NCBI GenBank assembly: GCA_903893815.1
Contig: CAITNS010000043.1
Location: 1 to 64,000, forward strand
DNA: 64,000 nt
Origin: an uncultured Bacteroidota bacterium
Lineage (GTDB): Bacteria > Bacteroidota > Bacteroidia > B-17B0 > Aurantibacillaceae
Reading direction: 5' to 3'
Part shown: positions 1,349-5,090 of the stretch, in pieces
How positions within the stretch are numbered: position 1 is the stretch's first letter
How the letters are laid out: each line of letters opens with the position of its first letter
Made by a program: the position numbers and the translations under genes
Notes under the pieces: model-generated
Databases searched by the model: none
What the model saw: the letters and a program-made list of their open reading frames with translations, nothing else
What the model was told of the DNA's origin: nothing

Positions 1349-1915
1349 TTATATAAATACTTCAATCAATAGAGCATAATTTGCTTTATAGGTTTTTTCT
1401 AAATTAAAACTAGCTATTGATTTACAGACTCGTCTCACTTTATAAAAGCCTATGGTATTTTTTATTTTAATTATTTTTTTTACAGCAACACCTTTATTAT
1501 CAATGAATCTTTTATTATGGCTTTTCTCTAAGACAACAATTAAATAGCAAGTAATATCAGGTCTGGCAAGCTTTATTTTTAGCAATTTGTTAATATCAGC
1601 ATCAATTTTAGCACCACTAACATCAGTTTTAAATTCGATAGCAAAAAGTTCTTTTCTGTTTTTATCTTTGATCAACAGATCCACTCTCTCCATAGTTTTA
1701 ACGTCACTGTGATAAATTTTTTTCAACATTTCTTCTTGAAAAACATTTTGACCATCAGTAAAATTTGATTGTAATAATTTACAAAACTCAAGAGTAATTG
1801 GCGCCTCTTGTAACTTATGATTATTGAAATACATTTTATTGTACGAAACCCAAAATGCAATACCTTGTAAGGCTTTACCAAATGGCTTAATAATCGTTGT
1901 TAAAGATTTTTTCAT
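1349..1915 (-). CDS. Putative PD-(D/E)XK-like nuclease domain protein
   Basis: 188 aa, no signal peptide, rich in Lys. I do not recognise the family from sequence alone. The core has the spacing of a PD-(D/E)XK catalytic site: an acidic pair at E61/E62, D79 within ERVDLLI, then E94 and K96 in AIEFK, on what would be consecutive beta strands. The following segment (PDITCYLIVVLEKS) looks like the next core strand. Proteins with this layout include restriction-type nucleases and DUF-level housekeeping nucleases. The gene stands alone between a surface-protein gene and a 476-bp non-coding stretch, with no methyltransferase nearby. The nuclease assignment is an inference from motif spacing only. 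Confidence 0.6.
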   Translation of the reverse strand: MKKSLTTIIKPFGKALQGIAFWVSYNKMYFNNHKLQEAPITLEFCKLLQSNFTDGQNVFQEEMLKKIYHSDVKTMERVDLLIKDKNRKELFAIEFKTDVSGAKIDADINKLLKIKLARPDITCYLIVVLEKSHNKRFIDNKGVAVKKIIKIKNTIGFYKVRRVCKSIASFNLEKTYKANYALLIEVFI

Positions 1916-2391
1916 GTTATCTTACCATTAATTTCATTACTATTTTTTTTAATAATTAGTAGAATTTTTACATTATTTGATTTTTGATCTGAGTTATATT
2001 TTCTCGAAATTATTGGTAATAAATATATTTTAGTTTAATGTTCATCATCTTAATTTTTCTAATTAAAAAAAGCTTGATAAAATGATTTTACTTTTGTTCT
2101 TGCTGAAACGCTTATTTCTGACATGGTTTTAATTTTTTAGAGTGTATCAAATATATATTTTTGATATTTTTGATTTTAGTTTAAGTTAGTCCAAGTATTA
2201 TTTTGAAATTGGAGAATCTTAAATTTTGATTATTCGTTTTTTAGGTGATTGGAATATATTTTAGATTAGATGCTTTTTATAATGCAACTTATATTTCACC
2301 GTATTTATTATTTAGAGCGAATAGTATAATGCAAAAAGTTAAACACACTTTTTGATAAAATAGGTAGGTATAATTGGAAGTAGTTAGCTAG
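1916..2391. other. AT-rich intergenic stretch
   Basis: 476 bp between two minus-strand genes. I see no convincing gene, tRNA or strong hairpin. A 21-codon minus-strand frame at 2059-2124 (MSEISVSARTKVKS...) is the only readable frame with a plausible start and is too short to support. The region may hold the promoter of the 1349-1915 gene. Confidence 0.6.
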
Positions 2392-3492
2392 CTATATTTT
2401 CCAGATTTTAGCAGCATTTCTGTTTAAGTAGGGCAGCGCCTCCTTCAGTGAGGTTGTGCTTACAAAAGATGGCAATGTATTTAAGACGTCACTAAACATT
2501 AGTTTTAATTGCTTATGCATATCAATTTTAGTGCTCGTAGTATTTACAAACACATCTGCTAGTGTATAGAGCACAATTCGTTTTTCTTCTAACGTAAGTT
2601 TTTGTATAGTTTTTGAAACAGAATTTAATAACCATATTTCATACTTTTCCGATTCTTGTATTGTGCCATTTATGGTTAAATAAAATAATTTATATGCCAA
2701 ATAACGAATTTTTGGAAAGATATGTATTGGCGCTAAATCTTTCGATGAAAAATTATATGTTTCATATAATTTAACGCCTAATTTCTTTGACTCTGATTTA
2801 TCGTTATTCAAAAAATAATATCGAAACAACAAACAATTTCCAAAAACAAAGTCTTGTAATGATTTTACAGAGTGTTCTGGTTTTATTCCGAGCAAGTAAT
2901 ATTTTAAGCCAATTTCGTAATTAGGTATTATAAAAGTGGGATCAGCCATAAATTCAAAAAAGGCTTCTCTAACTATTGGTAATTTGGAAAAATTTTTAAA
3001 GAATAAGTCGTTTTTGTTTGGATTTGTTTTTAGTGCCTTATAAAATTCTTCGCCGAGCGCTCCTTTTTTTTGTAATTCAAGGCTTCCATCAAATTGTTCT
3101 GAAAAATCATAAACAGATTTCAATTCATTATGATGTATACAAGAGCTTAGTAAACTTAATGTGTTCCTATTTTTGACATGTACTTTTCCAAAGGACCATT
3201 CAAATGTTGATAGTTCGTTTAATTGTTTTTCTAAACTATACCAATCTTTGTAATTACAAAATTTAGCTAAAATATCTAAGGTTTGCAAATAGGGAATGTT
3301 ATCACTGCCCTCTAATAAAAAAAGTCGGTACAAGGTGCTTTCTGATATTACAGGCAATCCTTTTAGCTCAAAAAGTTCACAAACCTTTCGGCAATCAGCC
3401 TTTGTGTAAATAGGAAATGCAATGGTTTCAATTACTTTCCAGTACAAGCCTTGTTTTAAGTACGGTGATAATATGTATTTAGGTTTAGGCAA
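2392..3492 (-). CDS. Putative Bacteroidota regulatory protein, N-terminal HTH-like domain
   Basis: 366 aa, start TTG at 3490-3492. Residues about 45-90 carry the pattern S-x-STLYRLF...LQTLDILAKFCNYKDWYSLEKQL. It resembles the N-terminal domain of lineage-specific Bacteroidota proteins that end a helix-turn-helix-like segment with LA-x-(F/Y)-x-GY-x-x-W. The rest is alpha-helical and has no motif I recognise; it could be a TPR-like helical repeat. There is no signal peptide. The 510-bp region directly upstream carries three pairs of 10-bp direct repeats, which would suit autoregulation. The exact family and ligand are unknown. Confidence 0.6.
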   Translation of the reverse strand: MPKPKYILSPYLKQGLYWKVIETIAFPIYTKADCRKVCELFELKGLPVISESTLYRLFLLEGSDNIPYLQTLDILAKFCNYKDWYSLEKQLNELSTFEWSFGKVHVKNRNTLSLLSSCIHHNELKSVYDFSEQFDGSLELQKKGALGEEFYKALKTNPNKNDLFFKNFSKLPIVREAFFEFMADPTFIIPNYEIGLKYYLLGIKPEHSVKSLQDFVFGNCLLFRYYFLNNDKSESKKLGVKLYETYNFSSKDLAPIHIFPKIRYLAYKLFYLTINGTIQESEKYEIWLLNSVSKTIQKLTLEEKRIVLYTLADVFVNTTSTKIDMHKQLKLMFSDVLNTLPSFVSTTSLKEALPYLNRNAAKIWKI

Positions 3493-3540
3493 AGTGCTAT
3501 AAAATTAAATAAATAATAAATATAGACAGTATAAATTAAT

Positions 3541-3560
3541 ACTTGAACTAACTTGAACTA
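3541..3560. promoter_or_regulatory. Direct repeat pair 1 (2 x ACTTGAACTA)
   Basis: Two perfect adjacent copies of the decamer ACTTGAACTA, about 50 bp upstream of the TTG start of the 2392-3492 gene. The 10-bp period places both copies on one face of the helix, as expected for a dimer bound head-to-tail. The operator role is inferred. Confidence 0.55.
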
Positions 3561-3687
3561 ATTATTTGGTTTTAAAAGTGGGTTATTATTTATGTAATTG
3601 GCATTACTTACTAATACTATAGTACTTTGCTATTTATAGATAATACAAAGTAACAGCTTATTTACTAGTATTTATCGCGGTCATTCA

Positions 3688-3707
3688 ACTTGCAACAACT
3701 TGCAATT
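3688..3707. promoter_or_regulatory. Direct repeat pair 2 (ACTTGCAACA / ACTTGCAATT)
   Basis: A second pair with the same 10-bp period and the variant core ACTTGCAA. It starts 147 bp after pair 1. The operator role is inferred from the similarity to pairs 1 and 3. Confidence 0.5.
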
Positions 3708-3792
3708 GCATTATTTAAATGTAATTTGAAATATTTAAACACTAAATACAATGTTTATTTACTTTTTAATATTTGTATGATACAGAAAATAT

Positions 3793-3812
3793 ACTTGAAC
3801 TAAGTTGAACTT
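3793..3812. promoter_or_regulatory. Direct repeat pair 3 (ACTTGAACTA / AGTTGAACTT)
   Basis: A third pair with a 10-bp period, whose first half is identical to the unit of pair 1. It begins 105 bp after pair 2 and 210 bp before the ATG of the 4003-4230 gene. The operator role is inferred. Confidence 0.55.
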
Positions 3813-4002
3813 GATGAGGCGGTTTAAACTCAGGATATTTGAAAAAATATAAGATTAATAAGGCCTTTGATTACAAAAAATGTATGTATTGCAATATTAT
3901 TGAGTATAAAATATTTTTACAATTGATTAGTACAAATTAAAAAGTTAATCGTTTTACCTATAACTGCAAATATGCTTTATTTGCAGTTAGTTATATAGCA
4001 GT

Positions 4003-4230
4003 ATGGATATTAGACAAATTATACGAATTAATAAACTCATAAAATCTGAGCGTACTGGTACACCAAAAACATTAAGCACGTATTTAGCTGTAAGCGAACG
4101 CTCAACACATAATTACCTGAGGTTTATGCGAAACGAACTTAATGCTCCTATTAAATGGAATGCTAAAAAGAGATCGTATACCTATAAAAACACTGGCGAA
4201 TTAAAAATGGAGTGGCAAGAAAACATATAA
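4003..4230 (+). CDS. Stand-alone mini winged-helix DNA-binding protein
   Basis: 75 aa. It matches in layout the N-terminal winged helix of WYL-type (YafY-like) regulators: R-I-x-x-LI near residues 8-14, then GTPKTLSTYLAVSERSTHNYL as the helix-turn-helix, then RNELNAPIKWNAKKRSYTY as the wing. The effector (WYL) part is absent and the protein ends soon after the wing, so it probably acts as a small dimeric repressor or antirepressor. The repeat-bearing control region lies directly upstream and an orphan gene lies 143 bp downstream on the same strand. Confidence 0.7.
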   Translation: MDIRQIIRINKLIKSERTGTPKTLSTYLAVSERSTHNYLRFMRNELNAPIKWNAKKRSYTYKNTGELKMEWQENI

Positions 4231-4373: not shown

Positions 4374-5090
4374 ATGATAGACTTTGTAAAAAATCAATTT
4401 GAGTGTTTTAAATTAGGGTTTGGAAATCCTAATGGAGACTATTGGTTTGTGGGGCCCGAAGAAGGGGGCAGTTCTGAATCGGTTGATTTAAGAATGCAAA
4501 TTTGGAAGCAACTTAATGCTGAACATTACACTGATATATATGACTTCCATAAATTATTTAACAACGGAACACTTCGTTTTTTTGATAACCCGATTAAGTT
4601 ACAAAGTACTTGGTCTGGTCTTATTGAAATTTTAATGGCTATGCGTGGCGAGGAATATTCTTTAAATCGTAAACGTCAAATACAATCTAAAGAATTTGGG
4701 AGAGGTAATTCTAATACTTGTATTGTTGATTTAATGCCCTACTCAAGCCAAAGTTTAGCGGATGTAAATTGGAACCTACACCACAAAGAAGCTAAAGTTG
4801 ATTATATCGCACGACTAAAAGCAATGAGAATAACACTTTTGGTAAATGAACTAATTACGTATCAACCAAAAGTTGTACTTTTTTATAGTAAATCCTATAT
4901 CAAAGAGTGGATTGAAATAATTAACAGAGTGGTTGATAACAATGTTACGTTTTTTCAGCATCCTGCTTTACCTCTGCTTTCTTATAAAAGCGACAGTACC
5001 TTATTTGTAATTACTGACCATCCAACTTCAATTACAATGAATTCAATTAAAACTGTAATTGGTTACAATCTTAAAGGCTTATTGGCTTAA
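4374..5090 (+). CDS. Orphan protein, possible uracil-DNA-glycosylase-like fold
   Basis: 238 aa, cytosolic. Three blocks stand out: GDYWFVGPEEGGSS at residues about 21-34, NTCIVDLMPYSSQS at about 113-126, and a C-terminal FVITDHPTS. An N-terminal WF(V/I)G-x-EEG block and a C-terminal HP motif recall a group of uncharacterised proteins that I associate with the UDG superfamily, in which the first block replaces the usual motif A and the HP block corresponds to motif B. Catalysis cannot be claimed. The gene follows the mini winged helix on the same strand with a 143-bp gap and precedes a symporter gene by 61 bp. Confidence 0.5.
   Translation: MIDFVKNQFECFKLGFGNPNGDYWFVGPEEGGSSESVDLRMQIWKQLNAEHYTDIYDFHKLFNNGTLRFFDNPIKLQSTWSGLIEILMAMRGEEYSLNRKRQIQSKEFGRGNSNTCIVDLMPYSSQSLADVNWNLHHKEAKVDYIARLKAMRITLLVNELITYQPKVVLFYSKSYIKEWIEIINRVVDNNVTFFQHPALPLLSYKSDSTLFVITDHPTSITMNSIKTVIGYNLKGLLA

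Follow-up and report, generated by a model that had tools for sequence, protein, structure and literature searches.

Whose binding sites are the three closely set pairs of direct repeats in front of a putative regulator gene of an uncultured Bacteroidota bacterium (Aurantibacillaceae), and which genes would they control? The window analysed here, a stretch of 64,000 nucleotides (positions 1 to 64,000 of contig CAITNS010000043.1), carries them between this regulator gene (2392-3492, minus strand) and a gene for a small winged-helix-like protein (4003-4230, plus strand), and the coordinates confirm the divergent arrangement that a sequence-only reading had described. That reading had reported three pairs of ACTTG(A/C)A repeated at 10 bp and had taken them for an operator array. 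All three are present: a proximal pair at 3541-3560 (ACTTGAACTA-ACTTGAACTA), a middle pair at 3688-3707 (ACTTGCAACA-ACTTGCAATT) and a distal pair at 3793-3812 (ACTTGAACTA-AGTTGAACTT), with their starts 147 and 105 bp apart as it had claimed. Its consensus holds with one exception, the second copy of the distal pair, which reads AGTTGAA and is one base off ACTTGMA.

Read from the regulator side, the conserved unit spans about 22 bp (AGTTCAAGTTAGTTCAAGTATT) around the core TTCAAGT-N3-TTCAAGT. The proximal tandem site is this very sequence (3538-3559, minus strand), 45 bp before the regulator start codon; TTAGTTCAAGT lies at exactly -59 of the regulator gene in the window and in the related genomes G014 and G138, and a proximal-like site is found at a similar position in G046, G055 and G419. 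The middle site (3685-3706, minus strand) is a variant, ATTGCAAGTTGTTGCAAGTTGA, of which ATTGCAAGTTGTTGCAAGT is identical in G014 while the second half is decayed in G138. The distal site (3790-3811, minus strand; AGTTCAACTTAGTTCAAGTATA) is kept in both of these relatives.

Such sites are remarkable for where they lie, not for how many there are. The pattern ACTTGMA-N3-ANTTGMA has four matches in the 3,694,075 bases of the window's own genome (G000), three of them in this stretch, and because a reversed control pattern also has three matches genome-wide, it is the clustering that is unusual and not the total count. Loose matches (up to three mismatches) number 26 in the window against 36.9 expected, that is, no excess over chance, and the same tolerance over 12 genomes yields 171 matches, and the reversed control 161; the weaker matches are therefore background. 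The exact form GTTYAAGTNNGTTYAAGTW occurs in seven of 395 genomes, compared with 13 for its reversed control, so that its total is not above chance either. It sits at the regulator locus in five of the seven (G000, G055, G138, G239 and G419; elsewhere in G029 and G307), an overlap which is partly circular because the pattern was written after the sites of those five genomes had been seen. At up to one mismatch to TTYAASTTNGTTCAAGTATT, G000 and G014 have three matches each, all at the regulator locus, and a wider regulon was rejected since neither genome has such a match elsewhere. Their distribution suggests a regulator dedicated to its own locus.

The regulator gene and the winged-helix gene were each searched in 60 related genomes, and a profile of the regulator was run against 395 genomes of the class, of which 27 had a match at E <=1e-6 and ten at E <=1e-29. 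We counted 12 homologues, all with upstream DNA, namely those of the latter ten genomes plus G014 and G211; G002 was excluded because its contig begins inside the gene, and weaker N-terminal matches were kept outside the count, 18 such loci being scanned with a site matrix. This matrix was trained on 15 sites, and simple shuffles of the window reached a maximum score of 15.5. Tandem repeats lie upstream of the regulator homologues of G014 (86% identical to that of the window), G055 (54%, an N-terminal fragment) and G046 (36%). Searching upstream of homologous loci, the check named in the sequence-only reading, finds the site conserved near the regulator start in seven of the 12: in six (window, G014, G138, G046, G055 and G419) it has the same orientation and lies 43-53 bp before the start codon, and in G292 it is reversed, at 108 bp, with a score of 16.5. 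The G416 homologue has a degenerate site in the customary position, with a score (10.2) that shuffled sequence also reaches, and no site precedes the regulator in G228, G239, G152 or G211, G239 having one before a small gene instead. At the 18 weaker loci, contig C58 of G239 apart, no site scores above 12. Outside the training set, four places exceed the shuffle maximum: L068:11125 (27.0), before the small gene of G419; L072:12759 (21.8); L070:3975 (16.5), the G292 site just mentioned; and a single place covered by both L053 and L097 (19.8).

The conserved sequence, the 10-bp period, the position near regulator homologues and the recurrence in genomes of several families support the proposal of an operator array. 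We assign the repeats to the 366-aa regulator, the protein predicted to bind them, because none of 13 other winged-helix loci carries them. Two genomes deserve separate mention. In G152, the site at L072:12759-12780 (plus strand) is 3.8 kb from the regulator gene, between another regulator-like gene and a 243-aa ORF, and no small-protein gene was found in this genome. In G138 (locus L134), the regulator is 92% identical to that of the window, and the winged-helix gene and a transporter gene are ordered as in the window; yet this genome is filed in another family, as Chitinophaga pinensis, so that transfer, mis-binning or mislabelling may lie behind the shared locus.

The regulator itself resembles little that is annotated. 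Its start codon is TTG in the window and ATG or GTG in relatives. For the window protein, searches of Pfam and NCBIfam (E up to 1) and of PHROGs and PADLOC (E up to 0.1) returned no match; 11 homologues gave only scattered weak matches to Pfam and NCBIfam (best E 0.0071), and a sequence search of the PDB returned nothing convincing. The regulator's first 100 residues can be aligned with the N-terminal ends of further proteins from the class, which vary in their C-terminal parts. From this alignment with unannotated proteins and from a low-confidence model, we read the N-terminal part as a putative helix-turn-helix, followed by a helical C-terminal part; the predicted structure, built from three sequences, is all-helical with a mean pLDDT of 52, too poor for a fold search. 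A phage or plasmid origin was also considered and rejected: the regulator has no match in plasmid and phage collections, and three viral contigs that carry the exact 17-mer encode no recognisable regulator (best tblastn E 0.99).

If the array belongs to the regulator, what does the regulator control? A fourth tandem site, which went unnoticed in the sequence-only reading, points to an answer. It lies at 2178-2199 (plus strand; AGTTTAAGTTAGTCCAAGTATT), downstream of the regulator gene and inverted relative to the proximal site. A site stands at the same distance before a homologous 126-aa gene, whose product begins MSEIS, in G014, G138 and G419, and in G292 and G239 a site likewise precedes a homologue of this small gene. 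In the relatives this is the first gene of a cassette; in the window, 21 codons of it are left, MSEISVSARTKVKSFYQAFFN (2059-2124, minus strand), the identity of the remnant being judged by eye. After the first gene, the relatives' cassette encodes further small proteins, a KAP NTPase, small proteins that look membrane-like by eye and a glycosylase-like protein, whose motifs we take to be like those of uracil-DNA glycosylases. The region in G014 also encodes OmpA, DUF4230 and hemopexin-repeat proteins and a TerB-like protein below the family cut-off. The neighbouring cassette of the relatives is thus like KAP P-loop NTPase (PF07693) cassettes in carrying such an NTPase (G014, G138, G419 and G239). 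Unlike these, the genome of the window (completeness rating 99.99%) has no KAP NTPase match up to E 0.001, and only two distant homologues of the small proteins, on another contig. This comparison indicates that the cassette has been lost from the genome of the window, the regulator and its predicted operators being left behind, and the sites resemble a switch that has outlived its main target.

The same association recurs in a second cassette of G239, on contig C58, where a distant regulator-like gene is divergent from an operon that encodes a KAP NTPase and another small protein of this type. The site between them was not in the training set and scores 19.8; of the 49 further loci scanned, only the two that cover this place exceed the shuffle maximum. 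More broadly, a recurrent cassette of YPYL-type small proteins, KAP NTPase, small membrane-like proteins and glycosylase-like protein is seen at L062, L134, L068, L070, L071 and L097. The small proteins tested had no Pfam, NCBIfam or PADLOC match and a marginal one in PHROGs (E 0.046), and nine other proteins of the cassette loci, the NTPase excluded, matched no PADLOC model. Two ORFs of the window may be noted alongside. The first, of 188 aa (1349-1915, minus strand), adjoins the place of the missing cassette and shows, by eye, a PD-(D/E)XK nuclease-like pattern; the second, of 238 aa (4374-5090, plus strand), contains the motif GDYWFVGPEEGG, which we take to recall uracil-DNA glycosylases. 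Neither has a Pfam match.

The position of the site relative to the promoter suggests how the small gene would be controlled. Passages of two papers give TAnnTTTG as the -7 box of the Bacteroidota main sigma factor; in F. psychrophilum this box occupies -12 to -5 (PMC9723704, PMC7366714). A match to this box, TATATTTG (2148-2155, minus strand), lies 44 bp from the start of the fourth site. The geometry recurs: the site starts at -75 and TAnnTTTG lies at -31 from the small-gene start codon in four of six genes (window remnant, G014, G138 and G419), three of these four exact cases being close relatives (window, G014 and G138). The site is at -77 and the box at -33, with one mismatch, in G292; in G239 about 125 bp separate the site from the start codon, and the box keeps the same offset from the site with two mismatches. 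An offset of 44 is therefore exact in four of the six genes and holds in five at up to one mismatch, and among the 53 offsets tested no other has any such match; its score was reached by none of 2000 shuffles of the four less related sequences. These promoters are like the Bacteroidota main promoter in their -7 box and unlike it in what precedes the box: the site ends 22 bp before it, and five of the six small genes have no TTTG in between, G239 having one near the -33 region. If TAnnTTTG is taken as the -7 box, the tandem site is next to the -33 region, a fixed place beside a main-sigma promoter that is the one looked for in a class II-type activator. A constant site-to-box geometry without TTTG is as expected of an activator that contacts the polymerase, and at the small gene the site has the geometry expected if the regulator replaces the -33 contact; activation is our inference from this arrangement.

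At the regulator's own gene the arrangement is different. A weak -7-like box, TATATTTA (3517-3524, minus strand), which may belong to the regulator's own promoter, follows 13 bp after the proximal site; it reads TATGTTTA in G138 and is not evident in G014. Because the site is reversed here and stands 13 bp from the weak box, the arrangement suggests autoregulation, probably by repression.

The most serious competitor is that the regulator represses at every site; the constant spacing at the small gene would then reflect occlusion of the promoter and not activation. We hold this to be the less likely reading, though one with some substance: a site beside the -33 region can also be used to repress, that of the regulator gene spans the expected -33 region, and the missing -33 element at the small gene says little, given the johnsoniae passage of PMC7366714. 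The constant spacing between site and -7 box is rather what is expected if the protein contacts the polymerase, however, and the orientation of the site is opposite at the two kinds of promoter, both of which speak against repression throughout.

Could the array instead serve the divergent gene? The repeats may have been the operator of the 75-aa winged-helix protein, whose match to HTH_11 is weak and below the cut-off, or of both proteins. The distal site does face the winged-helix gene in the window and in G138, and 44 bp from its start stands GATATTTG (3834-3841, plus strand), one mismatch from TAnnTTTG and a possible promoter toward the divergent gene; its counterpart has two mismatches in G014 and is not seen in G138. 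Control of the divergent gene by the winged-helix protein is nonetheless improbable, and the suggestion that the repeats are its operator did not survive the comparison. The 13 other winged-helix loci, several of them weak matches (E down to 3.5e-4) and one a copy on contig C55 of the same genome, have no exact repeats within about 1.5 kb on either side and no matrix score above 13.8; the array of G014 faces other genes; and most close winged-helix loci share a different upstream element. This element, TTAGTACAAA...AATCGTTTTA (3927-3956, plus strand), lies about 47-76 bp before the winged-helix gene, is common to seven of eight aligned upstream regions including that of the window, and is likely the gene's own promoter or operator. 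Just upstream of the gene there is also a perfect 12-bp inverted repeat, TAACTGCAAATA-N5-TATTTGCAGTTA (3961-3989); in G046 (L018) a perfect palindrome of another sequence occupies roughly this position, and several others keep part of the first arm only.

The spacing within the array had also been proposed to allow all pairs to face one side of the helix, with possible DNA looping between operators. The arithmetic is right in the window, where 147 and 105 bp equal 14 and 10 turns, and the middle-to-proximal step of G014, 106 bp (10.1 turns), is close to the latter. It fails in both relatives that keep the array, intact in G014 and with its middle pair decayed in G138: the distal-to-proximal distance is 252 bp in the window and 207 and 193 bp in these relatives, or 24.0, 19.7 and 18.4 turns, and the distal-to-middle step of G014 is 101 bp (9.6 turns). 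Same-face phasing is not conserved, so looping is left without evidence and we regard it as a very doubtful reading. Least probable of all, the repeats would be the end sites of a mobile element carrying the regulator, as the inverted proximal and fourth sites flanking its gene and the presence of the cassette in some relatives and its absence in others might suggest, but no transposase or recombinase was noticed by eye among the ORFs listed near the regulator, the latter has no match in plasmid or phage collections, and sites set at a constant distance from start codons and -7 boxes are more in keeping with promoters.

The fourth site and the lost target gene best explain the sites, and we consider it probable that these are the operators of a dedicated local regulator that would activate a cassette and control itself, the cassette having been lost here. 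Two half-sites in head-to-tail order, TTCAAGTTAG and TTCAAGTATT, would be bound by the 366-aa regulator from a single face of the DNA, and in relatives this protein would control the neighbouring cassette. It would activate the first small gene, standing in for the -33 contact, and it would regulate its own gene, probably as a repressor. After the loss of the cassette, what would remain in the window is the regulator with its operators, plus the promoter of the cassette and the 21-codon remnant of its first gene.

This is an ordinary kind of control. Locally acting, autoregulated transcription factors with tandem direct-repeat operators include those of the OmpR/PhoB type, and the present system is like them in its two head-to-tail half-sites about one helical turn apart, set beside the predicted target promoter, and in the location of the regulator gene beside its predicted targets. 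It is unlike them in its half-site, TTCAAGT-N3, and in that the regulator fits no Pfam or NCBIfam family, so that no receiver domain is recognised. In the literature searched, the regulator, its site and its target were not found described: searches on Bacteroidetes KAP NTPases and defence and on regulators with 10-bp direct repeats showed nothing on the regulator or the cassette among the titles listed.

It is tempting to go further, although we do so tentatively and with rather less than even confidence: an undescribed family of Bacteroidota regulators that use tandem TTCAAGT-N3-TTCAAGT sites may govern an undescribed inducible cassette, possibly for stress or anti-phage functions, whose switch has stayed intact after the cassette itself was lost. 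The analysis provides a testable DNA site for a regulator family without annotation in the libraries searched, and it predicts the point of action at the promoter, with the start of the site 44 bp from the -7 box. It also points to a recurrent KAP-NTPase cassette, the control of which could help to find its trigger.
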